A stretch of 64,000 bases of DNA from Aurantiacibacter sp. D1-12 (GTDB lineage: Bacteria; Pseudomonadota; Alphaproteobacteria; Sphingomonadales; Sphingomonadaceae), in assembly GCF_028858515.1 (NCBI RefSeq), contig NZ_JAPJZJ010000001.1:496001-560000 (forward strand), written 5' to 3'. Shown here in pieces: positions 12,825 through 55,479 of the stretch (positions within the stretch are counted from its first letter, which is position 1; every line of letters begins with the position of its first letter). Made by a program: the position numbers and the translations under genes. The notes beneath the pieces were generated by a model. It was not told the DNA's origin, made no database searches, and saw only the letters and a program-made list of their open reading frames with translations.

Positions 12825-14942
12825 ATGCGCGCATACGGGATCGCTCTCACGATATTCGGAGGGCTCACGCCCGCCCTTGCCGCCGCGCAGGATGACACGC
12901 GCCCGTCATGGGAGCATCCGCGCGTCGAGGCGCTCACCTGGCCCGAACTCGACACATTCGATAGCGAACGCGAATTCCGTGCTTGGGTGCGCGAGGTAAG
13001 GCGGCTTCAGCGCCGCCTGCGCAACGAACGGCGGGCTGAAGTCTTGGGCGACAATATCGTTGTCGCACAGCTCGCCCTAGAACGGCAGGAATGCGATCCT
13101 GAAGTCGAAGAATGCATTGAGGAAGAGGATGATAGCGGCGCGCGCATCATTGTAACGGGCGCGCGAATTCAGGCACCAAGCTATAACTCAATCACTCCGA
13201 TTGCCGTCACAAGCTCCGATGGATCGATCACCAACAATCAGGTCGCCGCGGTGGACGAGGGCGACATCGTCAAACGCATCGGGGATTACCTGCTTGTGCT
13301 GCAGGACGGGCGCATCTTTGCCGCCAACTTCCGCGATATGGCGTTGACCGACCGGATCGATGTTTACCGGACGGACGAGGATGGCGAACCTATCGGGGCT
13401 GACTGGTATGACGAAATGCTGGTCTACGGCGATCACATCATAATCACCGCATACTCATACGAGGATGAGGCTAGCGAGCTGTCGGTCTTTCGGCTCGATC
13501 AGTCTGATGGTTCGCTGGAACGGCGCGGTGTCTTTCTGATCAGTTCGGAAGACTATTACGATACCAGCAACTACGCGACGCGCGTGGTGGGCGATCGGTT
13601 GGTGATCCAGACCAGCTACGAGGCCGAAGACATGGTCAATCGGCGCAACCGTCCCGCAGTCAGACGCTGGGTTCCGGGCGAAGAGTTTGCCGAGCCTGAA
13701 AGCTCACGCCCCATCTTGAATGCCAGAGATATCTATCGCCCTGCGTTCCCGATCTCCGAGCCCTACGTGCACACCGTTTCGGTGTGTGATCTGGACAGCA
13801 TCGGAGACAACAACCTCGGCTGCTCTGCAACAGGGTTTGTAGGCAACTACGACTCCGAACTGTTTGTTTCGCAGCAGAATATCTACCTGTGGTCCTATGC
13901 GCTTTCGGATCAGGACTTTGACAACTACTTCGATTGCGCGGCGAATTTCGGCGATAGTCCGCCACCAGGCGCCGTCTATCGTCTGCCGCTGGGGAGGGGG
14001 GAGCCAGACCTGTTCCCTACGCGCGGTTGGATACCCAGCCAGTTCGCGATGCAGGAAGCCGATGGTCGCTTTCAGGCCATGCTCGCCTGGACAGGTGAGG
14101 AATGCCCCGATGATTACGAGGAAGGCGTTCCCATCACAGTCGAGTTGATCAATTCCCCGATGACAGCCTTTCGCGACAGCTATCGCCCGGTTCTCGATGG
14201 ATTGCTGACACCGCTGCCCGGGCTACCGGTCGACACACAGCAAATCCGCTTTACCCGTGACTGGCTGGTTTACGGACCGATGACCAACCTCGGGCGTCCG
14301 CCCCGCGTCGCTGAGCAAGGGGTGCAATTCGGTTATCTCAACGCCGTCCCGCTGGATGATGTGGAAAACCCGCAGCGTCTTGAGCTTAGCCATGACCTGA
14401 CCCGGCTTGAATCGCTCGGCAATGCCATGGTGGCAACGGGCTATCGTGATCAGAGCGGTCTTAATGTCACCATGGTCGATCTGCGCGGCGGAGCGGCGGT
14501 GCGCGGCTCCACACTGCTCAAAAACCGCTTCGAAAGCGAAGGACGCAGCCATGCCTTCAATGCGATGCCCTATCCGGAAGGTAACGGTCTCATGGGCCTG
14601 CCAACAGTACGCGCCGCTGAAGATGGACGCCGCTATCCGTGGCGATCTGATGACTCGCAGTTATCCTTCCTCAGCTTTGATAACGACGGGCAACTGGCTG
14701 ACCTTGGTGCGGTCGATCCGGCAGAGGTGGACCCTGAACTTGTCGAAGAGAGCCTTGATGGGCAGACAACCTATCCGAACGGCTACACTTGCGAAGTTTC
14801 CTGCGTGGACTGGTACGGCAATGCCCGCCCGATCTTCATCAATCGCGGGGTCTATGCATTGATGGGAACAGAAATCGTCGAGGCCGAAGTGCGCGAAGGA
14901 CAGATCGAAGTCGTCCGCAGGCTTGATCTTACGGGGGATTGA
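12825..14942 (+). CDS. Secreted beta-propeller-domain protein with TonB-receptor-like N-terminal motif
   Basis: A 705-residue exported protein with a signal peptide ending ALAAAQ. Residues ~30-90 are charged and helical, with a cysteine pair in ECDPEVEECIEEED. Near residue 105-125 comes IIVTGARIQAPSYN, which closely resembles the IVVTGxRI segment before the plug of sphingomonad TonB-dependent receptors. The rest matches the secreted 'beta-propeller domain' family (Beta_propel type): VDEGDIVKRIGDYLLVLQDG, repeated 'GDRLVIQTSY'-like blades and cysteine-bearing loops. There is no beta-barrel, so it is not a receptor. RBS AAAGGGGAC precedes the ATG. Function unknown; it leads an outer-membrane/caspase gene group. 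Confidence 0.82.
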   Translation: MRAYGIALTIFGGLTPALAAAQDDTRPSWEHPRVEALTWPELDTFDSEREFRAWVREVRRLQRRLRNERRAEVLGDNIVVAQLALERQECDPEVEECIEEEDDSGARIIVTGARIQAPSYNSITPIAVTSSDGSITNNQVAAVDEGDIVKRIGDYLLVLQDGRIFAANFRDMALTDRIDVYRTDEDGEPIGADWYDEMLVYGDHIIITAYSYEDEASELSVFRLDQSDGSLERRGVFLISSEDYYDTSNYATRVVGDRLVIQTSYEAEDMVNRRNRPAVRRWVPGEEFAEPESSRPILNARDIYRPAFPISEPYVHTVSVCDLDSIGDNNLGCSATGFVGNYDSELFVSQQNIYLWSYALSDQDFDNYFDCAANFGDSPPPGAVYRLPLGRGEPDLFPTRGWIPSQFAMQEADGRFQAMLAWTGEECPDDYEEGVPITVELINSPMTAFRDSYRPVLDGLLTPLPGLPVDTQQIRFTRDWLVYGPMTNLGRPPRVAEQGVQFGYLNAVPLDDVENPQRLELSHDLTRLESLGNAMVATGYRDQSGLNVTMVDLRGGAAVRGSTLLKNRFESEGRSHAFNAMPYPEGNGLMGLPTVRAAEDGRRYPWRSDDSQLSFLSFDNDGQLADLGAVDPAEVDPELVEESLDGQTTYPNGYTCEVSCVDWYGNARPIFINRGVYALMGTEIVEAEVREGQIEVVRRLDLTGD

Positions 14943-47290: not shown

Positions 47291-47581
47291 GTGCAGATCA
47301 CATCGATTATTGCAATATACTTCCTCTTTTGGGTCATGAGCGCTTTTGTTCTTCTGCCCTTCGGTGTGCAGACTTCGGACGAGGCCGGGATCGCAAAAGT
47401 CCCAGGGCAGGCCGATAGTGCTCCCGCCAATTTCCAACCGTGGAAGGTGGTAAGGCGCGCGACAGTACTCGCAGCCATCCTGTGCGGCCTCTACGTCGCC
47501 AACTACATCAACGGATGGGTCACGGTGGACGATATCAACATCTTCGGCACACCGCCGGGGTTTGAGGAAGCGGCGAGCTAG
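47291..47581 (+). CDS. DUF1467 family membrane protein
   Basis: A 96-residue protein with two membrane helices: ITSIIAIYFLFWVMSAFVLLP and ATVLAAILCGLYVANYING. The loop LPFGVQTSDEAG is the DUF1467 hallmark. It starts at GTG 47291, eight bases after rnj, and is probably the last gene of the nuo–birA–coaX–rnj transcript. Its stop interleaves with that of the convergent coiled-coil gene. Function unknown. Confidence 0.88.
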   Translation: MQITSIIAIYFLFWVMSAFVLLPFGVQTSDEAGIAKVPGQADSAPANFQPWKVVRRATVLAAILCGLYVANYINGWVTVDDINIFGTPPGFEEAAS

Positions 47582-50163
47582 TCCCGCAGGCGATCGATTG
47601 CCTGTGCAAGCGCAACGTAGAGCTTGCCGTGATCGCTCGAGAGCAGGGTAACCGCCAAAGCATTGCCGTCACGGGTGGAGAGCACTTCGCGTAGCATTGC
47701 CTCGAAATCATGGATGAAGCGGTTCACCGTTTCGCGGAACTCGCTGTCTTCGTTGTAGATATCGACCACAGCTCGGGTGTCCGGCTTGTCGAGCAGGCGT
47801 ACCGCCCGGCGGGTAAAGATGCCTCGGTCACCCTTCAGGTAATGCGCCCACTGGGTATCTGAGACTTCGTTGTCAAATGCCTTCGAAATGTCGATGGATG
47901 AAGAATTCAGCGCCTCTGTGATCAGCGCCATGCGGCGTGAGAAGTCGCTGTCGACTTTCTCCTCCGCGCGTTCTTTCGCATAGGCGATGCGCTGTTCAAG
48001 GTTGCCGGTCAGTTCGTTGAGCTTGGCGAGTTGGTTGCGCAGTGTAATCGCGGTGTCGCGACCATTCTCGGAAGCGCGCGAGATTGCAGCTTCAAGCTCG
48101 CTGATCGTACTGGCTGCTTCTGCCTTGATCGCTTCTGCAACCTTGTCACGGCTTTCAGCCGCAATCTTGGCGGCGATCTCGTCCAGCACGGCACTCTGGT
48201 TGGTGCGTAGATCCTCAAGCGCGGCATTTGATGAATTGGAAAGCAGCTCCAACGCCTCGCGCAACTCGGAGCCCGTCCGCTCTGCCAGTGTATCGCTTTC
48301 CTGTGAAAGTGTCCTGATCTGCTCTTCCATCGCGCGAAGATGTTCTACCGAGGTAGAGCCGCTTTCGCGCGCCTGTTCGATGTGACCGTAGAGCGTTGCG
48401 CTGCGCGTTTCGGCATCTTCGATCAGGCCATGCAGCCGGGTGGCTTCATTGGCGAAGTTGGACAGTCGTGCCTCTGCCTGACTGACCGCTTCGGACAACG
48501 CACCTTCGGAATGTTCCGCGCTTGCGCGGATGATTTCCAGCAAACGGACACTGTCATCCGTCACCTTGGCAACGAAACTGCTGCTTTCTTCAAGCGTGGC
48601 GCGGCTGTTTTGCAACCTGTCGGACAGCAACTGGGTCGCTTCATTCAGGGCATTGCCTGTGTCTTCCCCCTGCGAGGACAGTTCGGCAAGCTTCTGGTCG
48701 AGCGCACCCAATCGCGTAGCCAGCGCATCGCCGCGATCGGCGAGGCCGGCAATGTGTGCGTTGTGCTCTTCCTGCCGCGCGGCGATCCGCTCGTCGAGAT
48801 TGGTAAGCCGTGCTTCCAAGGCTGCGGCCTCGGCTTCCTGCTGCTCGGCAAGTTCACCGCGACGACGTTCCATATCGCTATCGAATGCGGCGATAGAGGC
48901 GGCCGTGTGGTTGTCGATCCGCTCGGCTTCTTCAGAAAGAGAAGCGAGGCGATTGCGCGCATTTTCCATTGCCGCTTCGTCTACGCGGGTGATCTCGCCA
49001 ATGGCTTCGGCCATGCGCGTTTCCAGAGCGGAAATTGCCTCGCTCCAGGTACGGGCGGCTTCCTCGCGCCCTTCGCCCATGGCGCTGAGCAGACGGTTGC
49101 CTTCTTCGGTCACTTCCGCGATGCGGCTGCGCATTGCGGCAAGAGCTTCCTCTTCCATTTCCTGCTGCGCATTGGTCTGGGTGGTAAGTTGAAGGGAAAG
49201 TTCTTCCGATCGCTTCTGAATCGTTGCAAAGGCTGCATCTTCGGATTCGACAAGGTCTGCGCGGAAGGCATCGCTGACATCACGCAGTCGGCGGAAGCGT
49301 GCCTGAGTGACTTCTCCAATCGAGGCAACCTGGCGGTCGAACGCCTCAAGAGTTGACGTCACGGCGTCATTGACCTGCGACACATGGCCTTGGCCCAGTT
49401 CGCCAAACTGGTTCAGCCTGTCAAAGGCCTCGACCAGAGATGCAACCTGCGTCTGCGCGACATTGCCGGCATTCCCGATCTGATTGCTCATATCGCGGGC
49501 GGCAGATGTCAGCACCGGCAACTGGTCACGCAGGCTTTCCATATTGCCCAGCGCGGTTTCGCTCACACCGCTAATCGATTCGAGTTGTGTACTGTTATCG
49601 TGGATCAGCGACTGCAGCTGGTTCGCGTTGGTGGAAAGCCTTTCGGTCGCAACGCGGCCAAGAGATTCAAGATCGCGCGATTGTGAGGCGATGAATTCGC
49701 GCGCCAGGCTCAGCTCGCGATTGACCACGACAAGGCGCGATTCGAGCTCGGCAGATTCTTCCGAAAGCGTGCGGGCAACATTTCCGAAACGCACCGCTTC
49801 GCTGCGGCTGTTGCGCATGGCGAGCAACCATAGGCCGATGATCAGCAGAACGGGCATCGACCATGCGACAATCCATTCCGACCACTGTTGAGCTGTAGCC
49901 GCGGCGAGCATCTCGGCTTGGTGAACCCAACCGAAGAATGCTGTCCAGACCAAGGCAGCAAGAACCGCCAGAGTGGGTACGACCCAGCCAAACCGCGATG
50001 GCTGATAGGCAGCCTCATAGTCCACATCGGTCAGAAACGGCTCGTGCTGAGCTTCTTCCGACAGCTCAACATCGGCGGCGTCTTCCTGGATAACAGTCTG
50101 ATCCTCAAGGGTTTCAGGCTGCTCATTGTCCTCTACGGACATCAAAGGGCGGCGTCTGGTCAT
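47578..50163 (-). CDS. Large two-helix membrane coiled-coil protein, TipN-like
   Basis: An 861-residue protein with an acidic cytoplasmic N-terminus, two membrane helices (about residues 59-79 and 97-115) and then a coiled coil of roughly 650 residues rich in Glu, Ala, Ser and Arg. A conserved-looking globular C-terminus follows (~760-861: WAHYLKGDRGIFTRRAVRLLDKPD…EDSEFRETVNRFIHDFEAML). This matches in size and layout the Caulobacter polarity factor TipN (888 residues, two helices, long coiled coil). Homology is inferred from architecture only. It diverges from the HPt-like gene and shares a CtrA-like site with it. An ATG at 50142 is an alternative start. Confidence 0.6.
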   Translation of the reverse strand: MTRRRPLMSVEDNEQPETLEDQTVIQEDAADVELSEEAQHEPFLTDVDYEAAYQPSRFGWVVPTLAVLAALVWTAFFGWVHQAEMLAAATAQQWSEWIVAWSMPVLLIIGLWLLAMRNSRSEAVRFGNVARTLSEESAELESRLVVVNRELSLAREFIASQSRDLESLGRVATERLSTNANQLQSLIHDNSTQLESISGVSETALGNMESLRDQLPVLTSAARDMSNQIGNAGNVAQTQVASLVEAFDRLNQFGELGQGHVSQVNDAVTSTLEAFDRQVASIGEVTQARFRRLRDVSDAFRADLVESEDAAFATIQKRSEELSLQLTTQTNAQQEMEEEALAAMRSRIAEVTEEGNRLLSAMGEGREEAARTWSEAISALETRMAEAIGEITRVDEAAMENARNRLASLSEEAERIDNHTAASIAAFDSDMERRRGELAEQQEAEAAALEARLTNLDERIAARQEEHNAHIAGLADRGDALATRLGALDQKLAELSSQGEDTGNALNEATQLLSDRLQNSRATLEESSSFVAKVTDDSVRLLEIIRASAEHSEGALSEAVSQAEARLSNFANEATRLHGLIEDAETRSATLYGHIEQARESGSTSVEHLRAMEEQIRTLSQESDTLAERTGSELREALELLSNSSNAALEDLRTNQSAVLDEIAAKIAAESRDKVAEAIKAEAASTISELEAAISRASENGRDTAITLRNQLAKLNELTGNLEQRIAYAKERAEEKVDSDFSRRMALITEALNSSSIDISKAFDNEVSDTQWAHYLKGDRGIFTRRAVRLLDKPDTRAVVDIYNEDSEFRETVNRFIHDFEAMLREVLSTRDGNALAVTLLSSDHGKLYVALAQAIDRLRD

Positions 50164-50233: not shown

Positions 50234-50536
50234 ATGGCCTATGCGCACGGTGATTTCGAAATGGCTTTGACAGCCGCTGCAGGGGAGGATCTTGCCCTCC
50301 TGGCAGAGCTGCGTACGAGCTTTGTCGAAAGCATGAGGGCGCAGCTCGATCTGCTGAGCCGGTCGCGGTGTGACGCGAACTGGAACATGGCAGCACAACG
50401 CATGCGCGGCCTGGGCATGAGCTTTCATGCCAGTGAGTTGGTGAAACTCGCCGATGAAGCGTTAGACGGCGCCCCGGGCGACCCGGCAGTTCTCCGCAAA
50501 CTGGATGCCCTGATCGAGGGTTTTTCCTCAGAGTGA
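50234..50536 (+). CDS. HPt-like protein lacking the phospho-accepting histidine
   Basis: About 100 residues, helical. It fits the histidine-phosphotransfer four-helix pattern: GEDLALLAELRTSFVESMR, then NWNMAAQRMRGLGMSFHASELVKLADEAL. In HPt domains the central helix reads AAHxLKG; here the histidine position is Gln in AAQRMRG, so phosphotransfer in the normal way is not possible. I place the start at ATG 50234; TTG 50192 is an alternative, and neither has a clear ribosome-binding site. It begins a rightward cluster ending in a histidine-kinase-like gene. Assignment rests on pattern only. Confidence 0.62.
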   Translation: MAYAHGDFEMALTAAAGEDLALLAELRTSFVESMRAQLDLLSRSRCDANWNMAAQRMRGLGMSFHASELVKLADEALDGAPGDPAVLRKLDALIEGFSSE

Positions 50537-50540
50537 CACA

Positions 50541-51776
50541 ATGCCCGCTTGGCAGTGCGCCAACGGCTCCCTAGCTTGCCCCTTCGTGTCCATTCGCAAG
50601 GGAAGCACCAATATCGTGCGAGCCGCACTGATCAGTCTACCGCAGCCTGGGGAGAGGGAGCAGCCCAGCATTGCAGGCAAGTCCATAGCGCAGCGACAGC
50701 TGCTGTTTGCGCGCGAATGCGGGTGCACAGCGGTGATCGCCTTTGGAGGCGGTGCATCGGATCAGGCGATTGCTCTGCGCCACGCGGCTGAAAAGGCGGG
50801 TATGCGCTATCAGGTGATCTCCAATGCTCACGCTTTGCCCGGTGCGATCAAAGACGAAGACAGCCTGCTTGTTCTGCAACCGGGAATGCTTCCCGAGGCG
50901 CGTCAGGCGCTCGACTTGCTCCGGTCAGAAGGTGATCGCATGCTTGTTGTGTCGGCAGGGCCAGGAACCTCTGCGGGTTTTGAACGGATCGATCTGGATC
51001 GCGCATGGGGCGGGGCCCTGACCATGCCCGGCGCATGGCTCGGTCGACTGACCGGGCTGCCGGAAGATACTGCTCCACATGCCGCCTTGCTTCGGATCGC
51101 GCTTCAGCAACGCTTACCCGAAGCGCGCATTTCTGAAGACTTGCTCGATGACGGGCGCTGGATGGTGGTTGCCGATGATGCAACTGCGCAGAAGCGCGAG
51201 ACGGGGTGGATGCGATCGCATCTAGGTGAAAGCTCGCCCGCTTCGCCTTCGCGCTGGTCCGCCACACAGATTGTCAGCCGGGCTGGCAGTTGGCTCCTTG
51301 ATCGGGCGTGGGCTAAACCAGCGATCCTGGGGCTTGCCGCCTCTTTTCTTGGCGGTGCGATTACGGCTGCGATCTACGAGATGCCGGTACTCAGCTTTGC
51401 CTTGGCGGCTTTGAGTGCGCCAACGCTGGAAGCGTTCCTGGCGCTATCTTGCCTTTCGGTCGCGCCGTTCGGAAAGGTGAAGCGTTGGCCATTCATGCGT
51501 CGGGCCATTGATGCGACCATTCTGGCGAGTGGCTTCATTATTATTGACAGTCTGTGGTATCGTGCTGCTTTTCCACCATTTGTTCTGGTAGCTGCACTGC
51601 TGCTACTGGACCGTGGCAAAGTACGGTCCGCAGTCGAACCGTTCCATGATCGGGCGCTGGTTGCGGGCGGCTTGGCGGTGCTTTCGGCCTTTATTGCGCC
51701 AGAGGTTGCGTTGATGCTCGTCGCAACACTCGTTTTGGCTGCGAAACTGGTGCCTGACACTGTAGAAAGCGGCTAA
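50541..51776 (+). CDS. Unknown membrane protein with nucleotidyltransferase-like N-terminus
   Basis: A 411-residue protein, not identified. Residues ~25-215 have an alpha/beta look: IVRAALISLPQPGE, then IAGKSIAQRQLLFARECGCTAVIAFGGG, like the 'GKPLIxxQLxxAxxxGC' part of sugar-phosphate nucleotidyltransferases, but without a clear catalytic GxGxR loop or metal Asp pair. Residues ~260-405 carry about five hydrophobic helices. The fusion recalls CTP:inositol-phosphate transferase/CDP-alcohol enzymes, yet the CDP-alcohol phosphotransferase motif is absent. Start could also be GTG 50586. It sits between the HPt-like gene and a helical protein. Confidence 0.62.
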   Translation: MPAWQCANGSLACPFVSIRKGSTNIVRAALISLPQPGEREQPSIAGKSIAQRQLLFARECGCTAVIAFGGGASDQAIALRHAAEKAGMRYQVISNAHALPGAIKDEDSLLVLQPGMLPEARQALDLLRSEGDRMLVVSAGPGTSAGFERIDLDRAWGGALTMPGAWLGRLTGLPEDTAPHAALLRIALQQRLPEARISEDLLDDGRWMVVADDATAQKRETGWMRSHLGESSPASPSRWSATQIVSRAGSWLLDRAWAKPAILGLAASFLGGAITAAIYEMPVLSFALAALSAPTLEAFLALSCLSVAPFGKVKRWPFMRRAIDATILASGFIIIDSLWYRAAFPPFVLVAALLLLDRGKVRSAVEPFHDRALVAGGLAVLSAFIAPEVALMLVATLVLAAKLVPDTVESG

Positions 51777-51788
51777 CGCGGAATTAAC
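51773..51788. promoter_or_regulatory. Second CtrA-like site (CTAA-N7-TTAAC)
   Basis: CTAA-CGCGGAA-TTAAC overlaps the stop of the membrane-protein gene and ends 22 bases before the start of the helical-protein gene. It matches TTAA-N7-TTAAC at all but one position. Chance occurrence cannot be excluded. Confidence 0.35.
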
Positions 51789-51810
51789 GCTGTTGGGCTA
51801 TGCCGCACGC

Positions 51811-52773
51811 ATGAGCGAGCAAGATCAGTCCGGTGCAACGCCAGAGGCGGTTGAAGCAACCCTGCGGCAAGAGTTGGCGCATGGCGATGTGGTCATCGCG
51901 ACCGCCAAGCCCATTCTACGGCATTTGCTGGCCAACGTTGACCAGGCGCTTTTCAGTGACGAGGTGACCGCAACGATCCGCGGCATGATGCGTGACCTGG
52001 CACGGCAAATGCTGTTCCATCTCGCTGAAGTTAGCGATGGAGGCAGCGATCGCGCTGCATTTGCAGAACAATATCAGAATGATCTGTCGATCGATCTGCT
52101 CGATCATGCAGAGTTCCTGGCCCATGCGCACGCCATCACAATCGAGGCGCATATCGCAACGCGCCTGAGCCAACGCAGCGGGATCGACCCCGTGCTCTCC
52201 CCGCTCTTGCAGGAACTTGCGGCCTCGAACGATGAAATCGTTGCCGCCGAAGCGATGAACGTGCTCGCAGCACAGGCGCGCTTCATGCAGCAACAGCGCC
52301 GCATGGAGCTGCCGCTAACGGAATTGCCAGTAGAATTGTTCGAACGCGCAATGCAAGTGTTCGACGACTTCTGCGTAAGGCACGCTATGTCAGGCGCATC
52401 GGCTGTACATGCCATGCGCAACAAGCACGACCCAGAACAGCGCCGTGTCGCACGGATCAAAAGACTGGTGTCCAGCATGCAGCACAATGCCAAACGTGCG
52501 CTGGAAGTGGACCATGCAGGTCTCTCAATATTCGTCACCGCTCTTGGAATGGCTTCGGAACAGGCCCGCGAGACTGCAATCCTGTCGCTTGGCGAGAACC
52601 AGTGCGCGCGCCTTGCTATCGGTCTGCGCGCGGCGGGGTTGGGCCAGAGTGCCGTCGAGGAGCAATTTCTGTTCCTCCACCCGGAAATCACCTTGCCCGA
52701 GGGATTCGACGCGCTCCACACAGATCGTGCCATCGCCATCTTGAGCGAAGCGCGTATCGAAGGCATCCAGTGA
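51811..52773 (+). CDS. All-helical protein of unknown function (possibly DUF2336-like)
   Basis: A 320-residue soluble protein of stacked amphipathic helices, without signal or membrane segments. The start is ATG 51811 (MSEQDQSGATPEA); TTG 51793 is possible. Internal segments such as DPVLSPLLQELAASNDEIVAAEAMNVLAAQARFM and VFVTALGMASEQARETAILSLGENQ look like HEAT-type repeats; alphaproteobacterial DUF2336 proteins have a similar appearance, but I cannot confirm membership. It lies five bases upstream of the histidine-kinase-like gene and is probably co-translated. Confidence 0.6.
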   Translation: MSEQDQSGATPEAVEATLRQELAHGDVVIATAKPILRHLLANVDQALFSDEVTATIRGMMRDLARQMLFHLAEVSDGGSDRAAFAEQYQNDLSIDLLDHAEFLAHAHAITIEAHIATRLSQRSGIDPVLSPLLQELAASNDEIVAAEAMNVLAAQARFMQQQRRMELPLTELPVELFERAMQVFDDFCVRHAMSGASAVHAMRNKHDPEQRRVARIKRLVSSMQHNAKRALEVDHAGLSIFVTALGMASEQARETAILSLGENQCARLAIGLRAAGLGQSAVEEQFLFLHPEITLPEGFDALHTDRAIAILSEARIEGIQ

Positions 52774-52777
52774 CCTG

Positions 52778-54142
52778 ATGACGTCCGCCCACATCATTTC
52801 CGCCCGCGCGCGCACCGATGCTGATGATCGCTTGATCGAGGCAGAGGAGCCTCTGGCAAGCTTCCACCTGCGCTCCGGTGGAGAACTGCCGGGTCCGATC
52901 GTCACGCCTGCGTTGCTCGATCTGGTACGCAAGGCCCGTAAGACCGGCAAGCGCATGTCTCGGGCCATTCGTGCGCAGGACTCGCTCGAACAGATCTCCG
53001 CATGGGCGGAGGTGGTTCCGGGTAAGGCTGGTACAATCATTACAATCAGCACGTGGGAAGCAGAGGATGTTGTCCAGACCACCGGTGCCGAGGAAAGGGC
53101 AGGGCATCTTGCCCTTGTTCGCCACCTTTCGGGCCTGACCGCGCGACTGGACACAAAGCAGAACCTCCTCACGGTGGACTGGACCGCGCGGGACATGGAC
53201 GAACTGGGCGAGGCCATGATGGCGGGTGTCGGGCAACCGTGGACCGACTTTGCGGGACCGGAAGGATCGAACCATCGGCAGCCTTTGCATTGGCGACTGC
53301 TGGACGGTGCTCTGGTGCAGGTTGCCGGCAGTAGTCGGGAATGGGCCGCGCAACTTGTTCCGCTGGGTCACGCCGAACCGGGCAGCGAGGGTTTCGAGCT
53401 CTACCTGGTGCCGGACCGTCCGCTGGAAGAGGCGCCCGCCAAGGAGTCGCGGCGCCCTGACCGTAGTGCGGGTATTGGCAGGGAAATCGCTCCCGTTCTG
53501 CGTCAGCCGGTTAGCCGGATTATCGCCAACGCGGAAACCATCCGCACTCAGCTCGCGGGGCCGCTAGCGGACGAATACAGCAACTACGCCGCTGACATCG
53601 CTTCCGCAGGAGAGCATTTGCTCGCGCTAATCGACGATCTGACCACACTGGAAATGGTCGAAGACGAAGACTTTGCACCTGCTCCGGACAATATCGACCT
53701 TGCCGATGTTGCACGCCGTGCAGCCGGTATTCTTGGCGTTCGTGCGAAAGAGCGCGGCATCGTGCTCGATGCACCGAAGGACGGTGAAAGCGTGCCCGCC
53801 ATAGGTGAATTTCGGCGAACCCTGCAGGTTCTGCTCAACCTGGTCGGCAACGCGATCCGCTATTCGCCTGAAGGCGGACAGGTATGGATCCGTGTCGAGG
53901 AAGTCGATGGGCGCGCGCGCGCTATCGTCGCGGATCAGGGCGAAGGCCTCGATGAAGATCAACAGGCGAAGGTGTTTGCCAAGTTCGAACGGCTAGGGCG
54001 CCAGGGAGATGGGGGGTCGGGCCTAGGCCTTTACATCTCGCGCCGCCTGGCCCGCGCCATGAATGGCGATCTGACTGTCGAGAGTGCCAAGGGGCAGGGT
54101 GCCCGCTTCACGCTGGAAATCCCGGCCGATCCTGACACATAA
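52778..54142 (+). CDS. Histidine-kinase-like protein with degenerate H-box
   Basis: A 454-residue cytoplasmic protein with no membrane helix. The ATPase domain is complete: N box LNLVGNAIRYSPEGG near residue 352, G1 VADQGEGLDEDQ near 386, F box VFAKFERLG and G2 GGSGLGLYISRRLARAMNG near 411. The dimerisation helix aligns as APVLRQPVSRIIANAETI, where the normal HELRTPL places Pro at the histidine position, so autophosphorylation of the usual residue is not possible. The N-terminal ~220 residues hold no recognised sensor but may be PAS-like (WRLLDGALVQVAGSS). It ends the cluster before a terminator. Confidence 0.82.
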   Translation: MTSAHIISARARTDADDRLIEAEEPLASFHLRSGGELPGPIVTPALLDLVRKARKTGKRMSRAIRAQDSLEQISAWAEVVPGKAGTIITISTWEAEDVVQTTGAEERAGHLALVRHLSGLTARLDTKQNLLTVDWTARDMDELGEAMMAGVGQPWTDFAGPEGSNHRQPLHWRLLDGALVQVAGSSREWAAQLVPLGHAEPGSEGFELYLVPDRPLEEAPAKESRRPDRSAGIGREIAPVLRQPVSRIIANAETIRTQLAGPLADEYSNYAADIASAGEHLLALIDDLTTLEMVEDEDFAPAPDNIDLADVARRAAGILGVRAKERGIVLDAPKDGESVPAIGEFRRTLQVLLNLVGNAIRYSPEGGQVWIRVEEVDGRARAIVADQGEGLDEDQQAKVFAKFERLGRQGDGGSGLGLYISRRLARAMNGDLTVESAKGQGARFTLEIPADPDT

Positions 54143-54192: not shown

Positions 54193-55479
54193 TCAGCGTT
54201 CGCTGACCGGCACGTAATCGCGCTGCGTCGGCCCGGTGTAGAGCTGACGCGGGCGACCGATAACCTGACCGGGATCGGAGATCATTTCGTTCCACTGCGC
54301 GACCCAACCCACGGTGCGGGCAAGGGCGAACAGCGCGGTGAACATGGTGGTCGGGAAACCAATCGCTGACAGGATGATGCCCGAATAGAAATCCACGTTC
54401 GGGAACAGCTTCTTCTCCTGGAAATACGGATCGTTGAGGGCGATCTCTTCCAGCTGAAGTGCGGTTTCGAACACCGGGTCTTTCACCTGCAGCGCATCGA
54501 ACACTTCGCGCACAGTCTTCTGCATCACCGTCGCGCGCGGATCGTAATTCTTGTACACACGGTGGCCGAAGCCCATCAGGCGGAACGGATCGTTCTTGTC
54601 CTTTGCACGCTCGATGTAGTGCGGGATGCGATCGGGCGTACCGATTTCACGCAGCATGTTGAGCGCCGCTTCGTTGGCACCGCCATGTGCCGGGCCCCAA
54701 AGGCAGGCAATACCCGCAGAGATACAGGCAAACGGGTTTGCGCCCGACGAACCGGCGAGGCGCACAGTCGAGGTCGAAGCGTTCTGTTCGTGATCGGCAT
54801 GGAGGATAAAGATCCGGTCCATTGCCTTCTCGACCGCCGGGATCACCTCGTACTCTTCTGCCGGCACACCAAAGGTCATGCGCAGGAAGTTGCCCGTGTA
54901 ACTGAGTGAGTTATCCGGCTGCATGAAGGGCTGGCCAACAGCATACTTATATGCCCAGGCCGCAATGGTCGGCATCTTGGCAATCAGGCGGTGGCTCGAA
55001 ATTGTGCGGTGCTCGGGGTCCGAAATATCGGTGCTGTCATGATAAAACGCCGAGAGTGCGCCTACCACGCCGCACATGATCGCCATCGGGTGGGCATCAC
55101 GGCGGAAGCCCTGATAGAACTGCCGCATCTGATCGTGCAGCATAGTGTGATAGGTGATCGTCTGAGTGAAATCGTCCAACTCCGCCTGATTGGGAAGTTC
55201 ACCGTTCAGCAGCAGATAGCTGACTTCCATGAAGCTGGAGTGCTCGGCAAGCTGGCCAATCGGATAGCCGCGGTGGAGCAGAACGCCTTCGTTACCGTCG
55301 ATAAAGGTCAGCGCGCTTTCGCAGCTTGCGGTGCTCTTGTAACCAGGATCAAAGGTGAACTTGCCCGTCTGTCCGTACAATTTGCGAATGTCGATGACAT
55401 CCGGGCCAACGCTGCCTTCCAGTGTCGGGAAGGTGTGCGTGTCGCCACCAATATTCAGTTCCGCCTGCTTGTCAGCCAA
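54193..55479 (-). CDS. gltA: Citrate synthase
   Basis: Condenses acetyl-CoA and oxaloacetate; first step of the TCA cycle. It is 428 residues, the hexameric type II form, starting with an extra ~50-residue N-terminal beta domain. Catalytic histidines lie in [12 protein letters not shown] and [15 protein letters not shown], and the Asp in [12 protein letters not shown]. The start is TTG 55479 ([12 protein letters not shown]) with AAGGAGAAG just upstream. Confidence 0.96.

Follow-up and report, generated by a model that had tools for sequence, protein, structure and literature searches.

Split kinases and pseudo-histidine kinases are both already known. Amin, Porter and Soyer (PMC3591291) tallied the HisKA proteins that lack an ATPase domain and suggested that these could be split kinases, with CheA3/CheA4 as the biochemically characterised case; 1.7% of HisKA proteins are put forward there as possible split bifunctional kinases. 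DivL acts as a regulator in the CckA pathway according to the available part of PMC5361649, and the excerpted PMC12632262 reports that the histidine is missing in 0.9% of HisKA and 0.9% of Hpt domains. The locus described here lies in a 64,000-nucleotide stretch of Aurantiacibacter sp. D1-12 (contig NZ_JAPJZJ010000001.1, positions 496,001 to 560,000; the window), a sphingomonad genome with Erythrobacter sp. EC-HK427 and Aurantiacibacter marinus as its closest named relatives. Between a gene that we call UP and gltA stand four genes on the same strand, P1, P2, P3 and P4, at the open reading frame positions given in a preliminary description of the stretch. From the sequences we propose that Sphingomonadaceae have a histidine kinase that is split by nature, in which P4 may be the ATP half and L209, a protein encoded elsewhere in the genome, the His half; we give this identification about an even chance, and regard a pairing of P4 with L209 as such as likely.

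P4 (52778-54142, plus strand) is a soluble protein with a PAS-like/PAS-like/HisKA/HATPase layout, an intact ATP site and Pro239 in the place of the phospho-His, and forms the proposed ATP half. Its Pfam matches are PF00512 HisKA at 29.5 bits (cut-off 26.9) and HATPase_c at E=2.8e-27; both families are matched in 50/50 P4 members at E 1 or below, and PAS families in at most 12/50. The segment APVLRQPV aligns with the H-box SHELRTPL, which puts Pro239 at the His and Val240 at the catalytic Glu. The alignment of 105 rows, made up of 104 loci plus the window with several genomes entered twice, was counted after removal of two non-orthologous kinases with His, L042 and L043. Histidine occurs at the phospho site in none of these rows, where the residues are Pro (84), Arg (5), Lys (4), Gln (3), Ala (3), Gly (3), Ser (2) and Asn (1), and the adjacent catalytic Glu position is Val or Ala in 101. 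Since the position is never His in 105 rows, the missing histidine is not a sequencing slip. The N-box, DxGxG and GxGLGL motifs are invariant in 50/50 rows, and the N, G1, F and G2 boxes are kept, in agreement with the preliminary description, which had read P4 as a kinase with Pro for phospho-His and intact N, G1 and G2 boxes. The intact ATP site would also suit autophosphorylation of P4 on another residue; this is highly improbable, as the series of residues at the His position includes no conserved acceptor and the neighbouring catalytic Glu has been replaced in nearly all rows. One in-frame stop each was seen in the P4 orthologues G268:C13:117277-118644 and G317:C2:166471-167793, from either assembly error or decay.

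The predicted structure of P4 (mean predicted local distance difference test score 85.9, predicted template modelling score 0.50) has PAS-like domains at ~8-97 and ~120-212, DHp helices at 233-258 and 265-295, and an ATP domain at 305-450. Mean conservation is the same in the DHp and ATP domains, 0.71 for each, and exceeds that of the two PAS regions (0.52 and 0.39). The 50 best VIA-align rows for the model are sensor kinases, phytochromes or their domains with Z of 18.7-22.6, and the nearest folds are tied between HK853 (6rgy, Z 22.6, 214 aligned residues, root-mean-square deviation 5.4) and DivL (4q20, Z 22.3, 221 aligned residues, root-mean-square deviation 4.6). The window's genome has twelve HisKA domains, ten with His, one with Tyr (the DivL-like L203), and P4. 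A kinase tree of 23 P4 rows and 12 other kinases unites all the P4 rows in a single group (support 100/100), and a branch with support 96/89 separates this group from L203, itself a long branch and the sole DivL-like protein in the tree. We considered P4 as the DivL orthologue and rejected this, given the separate L203, which carries the Tyr that DivL has at the H-box where P4 has Pro239, and the placement of P4 apart from it. The nearest complete kinase in the tree, L222 (support 97/66), keeps MSHELRTPL, so P4 probably lost its phospho-His once, as judged from a tree in which long branches are present and the bootstrap is unsettled. P4 is present in 249/298 Sphingomonadaceae genomes at E 1e-30, a count in which ~15 genomes with E above 1e-49 could hold other kinases.

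L209 was found by reading the HisKA domains of the window's genome, where it stood out by HELRTP, a P4-like DHp (GPxxxEY) and the lack of a HATPase match. It is a protein of 564 residues encoded at G000:C4:283956-285647, outside the window and 263 kb from P4, with H334 as the phospho-His, and has relatives in 255/298 family genomes at E 1e-10. The H, E, T and P of its box are invariant in 51/51 rows (50 genomes, with the window genome's own copy twice). HisKA is matched in 35/35 L209 members and HATPase_c in 2/35 (best E 0.009); among 60 rows the ATP motifs are found zero times for GxGLGL, once for DxGxG and once for the N-box. No match to HPTransfase (PF10090) was found among the 35 members at E 1 or below. 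P4 is thus an ATP-site protein without phospho-His and L209 a phospho-His protein without ATP site, and on this ground the two are complementary. In two genera L209 is immediately followed by a gene with the common early motif LLTVDTEEEFDW (L339:7945-9003 and L340:9092-10129).

The distribution of the two genes was compared across the same 298 Sphingomonadaceae genomes, in a table counted by hand from the search outputs. Both are found in 248 genomes and neither in 42, with P4 only in one and L209 only in seven (Fisher p=1e-42, a value that ignores kinship of the genomes and is inflated by phylogeny); in five of the seven L209-only genomes the L209 E-value is 4.5e-12 to 1.6e-19. The link between P4 and L209 is drawn solely from this co-occurrence. 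In a GltA tree of 29 genomes, which was labelled before the L209 profile search and leaves out G079 from 30 marker rows, the well-supported branches give 5 independent contrasts; L209 follows P4 in 4.3 of these on average, is unchanged in 0.7 and never goes the opposite way, which is suggestive of joint change. Single-sequence searches miss divergent L209 relatives, and the absences that they give for G082 and G083 are degenerate rather than absent copies.

We examined genomes without P4 by a sensitive L209 profile search of 33 chosen genomes, including 19 of the 49 P4-less ones. L209 relatives are present in six of the 19 (G101, G082, G083, G248, G065 and G238), and P4 was not found in these six, where the best kinase matches have E 7e-44 and none reaches the first 177 positions. 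In four of them the L209 box has either decayed or been deleted: HELRTP has become DDLRGP in G101, EALRGP with eroded helices in G082, and HRLRDP in G083, in which the His letter is kept, Glu and Thr are lost and the helices are eroded, and in G248 the entire PAS-DHp part is absent in frame. G065 (HEVRTP) and G238 (HELRTP) have an intact box. For comparison, the H-E-x-x-[TN]-P box is intact in 54/54 rows from P4-bearing genomes, sampled from the 248 with both genes as 29 best hits, 19 distant picks, 5 others and the window genome's own copy, vs 2/6 without P4 (Fisher p=3e-5, phylogeny ignored). G141, which has the same genus code as G248, has P4 and an intact L209 box.

These losses also bear on an indirect cause of the pattern, in which P4 and L209, with no direct contact, decay together in lineages that lose an unrelated trait such as motility. 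Several absences do recur across genomes of one genus (e.g. g25, g38, g45, g47, g62), as such co-decay would give. We consider it improbable, since within-genus differences occur in g53, g70 and g103, since decay strikes the His-bearing part of L209 and spares the rest of the protein, and since UP stays (31/33 genomes tested, including 18/19 P4-less), as does P2 where looked at. In G238, G248, G108 and G091, 66 to 281 bases separate P2 from gltA, and neither P3 nor P4 is found in between; P3 and P4 have gone together at those four sites, the only places in these genomes searched for P3, with P2 kept in all and P1 too in G238.

From these data we infer the physical pairing, the direction of phosphotransfer, the output and the role of P3 as follows. 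P4 and L209 would pair through their DHp dimerisation helices in a mixed dimer, in which P4 would use its bound ATP to phosphorylate H334 of L209; we rate the chances of such phosphorylation in trans, from P4 to L209, as evenly balanced. L209 would then give the phosphate to a response regulator, or take phosphate off it, and, with HExxT kept, may be phosphodonor and possibly phosphatase. P3, on the basis of its shared presence and loss with P4, would be a probable accessory subunit on the P4 side. A history to which we give slightly less than even odds begins with two complete HisKA-class kinases that formed a pair and lost complementary parts. One would have become the ATP half (P4, with the DUF2336 protein P3) and the other the His half (L209), the halves being kept together over most of the family, and L209 would tend to shed its phospho-acceptor once P4 is lost. 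The preliminary description had offered two mechanisms, ATP-dependent conformation or phosphorylation of another residue; the evidence lies nearer the second, with P4 acting on or with the histidine of L209, and conformation alone is less favoured.

The main rival is a non-catalytic, DivL-type regulator of L209 or of a receiver. P4 would here bind a phosphorylated receiver or the DHp of L209 and switch conformation, perhaps ATP-dependently, and L209 would be phosphorylated by another kinase, or be a phosphotransferase or phosphatase regulated by P4. DivL is, in the available part of PMC5361649, an established pseudokinase whose DHp and PAS domains sense DivK~P. The strong conservation of the P4 DHp without its His and the HExxT motif retained in L209 would fit a role of this kind, and the DivL crystal structure 4q20 is among the nearest folds of P4, tied with active kinases. 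However, the complementary loss, with the ATP site only in P4 and the His only in L209, would be left to chance, DivL keeps its Tyr, and the genome has its own DivL-like L203 outside the single P4 group. We therefore hold a DivL-type role to be possible and clearly less probable than a split kinase.

Several observations weigh against the split kinase of P4 and L209. The tree-controlled sign test is not significant alone (median p 0.125), the single-sequence L209 E-values are weak in distant genera, and the P4 and L209 genes are not neighbours. L209 is intact in G238 and G065, which have no P4, so L209 can exist without P4, which speaks against strict dependence; weak L209 matches, with boxes unread, occur in the P4-less G153, G210 and G256, of the genus of G065, and the profile search covers only the 19 P4-less genomes. 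In G315 (540 contigs, 90% complete), which has P4, the L209 profile matches nothing but P4. The open reading frames around L209, listed by their first residues only and not domain-scanned, showed no receiver partner. Finally, ChpT-type histidine phosphotransferases have a kinase fold with a His-bearing DHp and a dead ATP domain. L209 resembles them, and a protein of this type would need no P4; unlike them, L209 gives no PF10090 match and has a long N-terminal part.

P1 (50234-50536, plus strand) has an HPt fold with Gln55 at the phospho-His site and is optional at P4 loci. In the motif AAQRMRG, Gln55 aligns with the HPt phospho-His in a profile alignment to two relatives outside the family that have an intact His (AHTLKGSA). 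Among 45 rows the residue is Leu (11), Met (10), Trp (8), Gln (6), Glu (4), Ala (3), Arg (1), Ser (1) or His (1, L031). The predicted model (pLDDT 91.9) is an HPt helical bundle: HPt domains fill the 16 top VIA-align rows at Z 9.9-12.2, led by 7c1i (Z 12.2, 98 aligned residues, root-mean-square deviation 2.6), and unrelated four-helix bundles score Z 9-10. Foldseek alone gave no match passing E 0.001. PF01627 is matched by 20/36 P1 members at E 1 or below (best 8.2e-6), the window copy being unmatched, and the P1 profile found no HPt match among PDB sequences; the identity of P1 therefore rests on the Pfam matches of its relatives, the fold and the relatives with an intact His. Against the P1 profile, 30 canonical HPt loci of the family, most of them CheA-like, stay below 7 bits, and four HPts next to UP reach 11-21 bits. 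The earlier reading of P1 as an HPt-like protein with Gln for His is borne out, both by the structure prediction suggested as its test and by the answer to the objection that the alignments might be shifted, as homologues in both families lack His at the aligned site apart from the single P1 row. Both domains are genuine, and both phospho-His losses extend far beyond one genome. On the minus strand at 14481-14579 there is a very weak Hpt-profile match (E 0.028), probably due to chance.

The preliminary description went further and took P1 and P4 as the two ends of one system, in which pseudo-HPt and pseudo-kinase would signal jointly without phospho-histidine by ATP-driven conformation. The His is missing in both, and P1-P4 and UP share one gene order in 35/50 loci with upstream sequence. 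However, in a survey of 70 loci with an upstream stretch, all picked for having P4 and with the truncated L033 excluded, P3 is seen in 69, P2 in 65, UP in 61 and P1 in 43. The stretch read lacks P1 at the other 27, with UP in place without P1 at 18 of these, and P1 remains in G238, where P3 and P4 are lost. A joint P1-P4 module is accordingly quite improbable. P1 keeps company with UP, which accompanies it at all 43 loci having P1. The C-terminal part of UP is matched in 35/143 alphaproteobacterial genomes, three of them Sphingomonadaceae, and beyond Sphingomonadaceae an HPt stands divergent beside UP in 7/30 neighbourhoods (L147-L150, L214, L215, L220), with His in all seven. Because the UP-side HPts elsewhere keep their His, P1 has the look of an ancient HPt whose His was lost in Sphingomonadaceae, and UP with HPt looks like an old pair of polarity scaffold and HPt.

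UP (47578-50163, minus strand) is the divergent neighbour of P1 and encodes 861 residues with hydropathy peaks at 58-76 and 98-116, generic coiled-coil matches in Pfam and a conserved C-terminal domain; NCBIfam names gave generic matches only. TipN has two N-terminal membrane segments and a long coiled coil. UP shares these features and is TipN-like by architecture alone. Among the 20 UP loci fetched outside the family the single P4-profile match is the kinase of L134, ~5 kb from UP, which we considered as an active relative of P4 and rejected, as it has MSHELRTPL and its Pfam domains are those of an ordinary GAF/PAS kinase. Neither P2 nor P3 turned up at E 0.01 in these 20 loci, some of whose stretches end at contig ends; ten further UP loci were searched with UP, HPt and kinase profiles only.

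P2 (50541-51776, plus strand; its true start may lie further downstream, near 50613) appears to combine a degenerate MobA-like nucleotidyltransferase domain with membrane helices. It had been described as a membrane protein with a nucleotidyltransferase-like N-terminus, of which the membrane segments are predicted by hydropathy; for the N-terminus, NTP_transf_3 is matched weakly in 12/43 members (best E 2.4e-4) and not in the window copy. By eye, its relatives lack what we take to be the usual glycine-rich signature of MobA-like nucleotidyltransferases, and P2 may be another degenerate enzyme. P3 (51811-52773, plus strand; ATG at 51811, alternative TTG start at 51793) ends 4 bases before P4 starts. 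It is all-helical, as first described, and belongs to the DUF2336 family: PF10098 is matched in 21/45 members (best 3.3e-30), the window copy being assigned by homology to them only. The open-licence literature searched held no paper on DUF2336 or histidine pseudokinase. On the other side of P4 lies 54193-55479 (minus strand), which from its sequence we take to be gltA, citrate synthase. Citrate synthase is convergent with P4 and within ~0.5 kb or less of it in 10/13 P4-bearing genomes where both were placed, and still adjoins P2 where P3-P4 have gone. In the available part of a Caulobacter study (PMC7083601), citrate synthase is tied to cell-cycle control and the polarity protein TipN is often mentioned.

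No paper on the P4-L209 pair was found in the open-licence literature searched, which is no proof of absence, and the comparison is with systems already described. Like DivL, a HisKA/HATPase pseudokinase of the Alphaproteobacteria with PAS domains and no phospho-His (PMC5361649, as far as available), P4 joins an ATP domain to a DHp without histidine; unlike P4, DivL has Tyr at this site, and the window's genome has its own DivL-like protein apart from P4. CheA3/CheA4 of Rhodobacter sphaeroides likewise places an ATP half and a His half on two proteins, neither complete alone, and its His half can also carry phosphatase function, according to the accessible text of PMC3591291 and PMC6829392. 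Those proteins are of the CheA class and miss whole domains, whereas P4 and L209 are of the HisKA class and both keep a DHp and an ATP-domain-like region, having lost complementary residues, as known here from sequences alone. That a HisKA-class kinase can work when split is indicated by the separated HisKA and HATPase domains of EnvZ, an artificial laboratory construct cited in the available part of PMC3591291. P4 and L209 thus offer a specific HisKA-class candidate in which each half is named and the pair is conserved over most of Sphingomonadaceae, and for which natural losses, as in G248 compared with its genus mate G141, predict the result. If the pair is a split kinase, it would give reason to seek a missing partner whenever a conserved pseudo-histidine kinase turns up.

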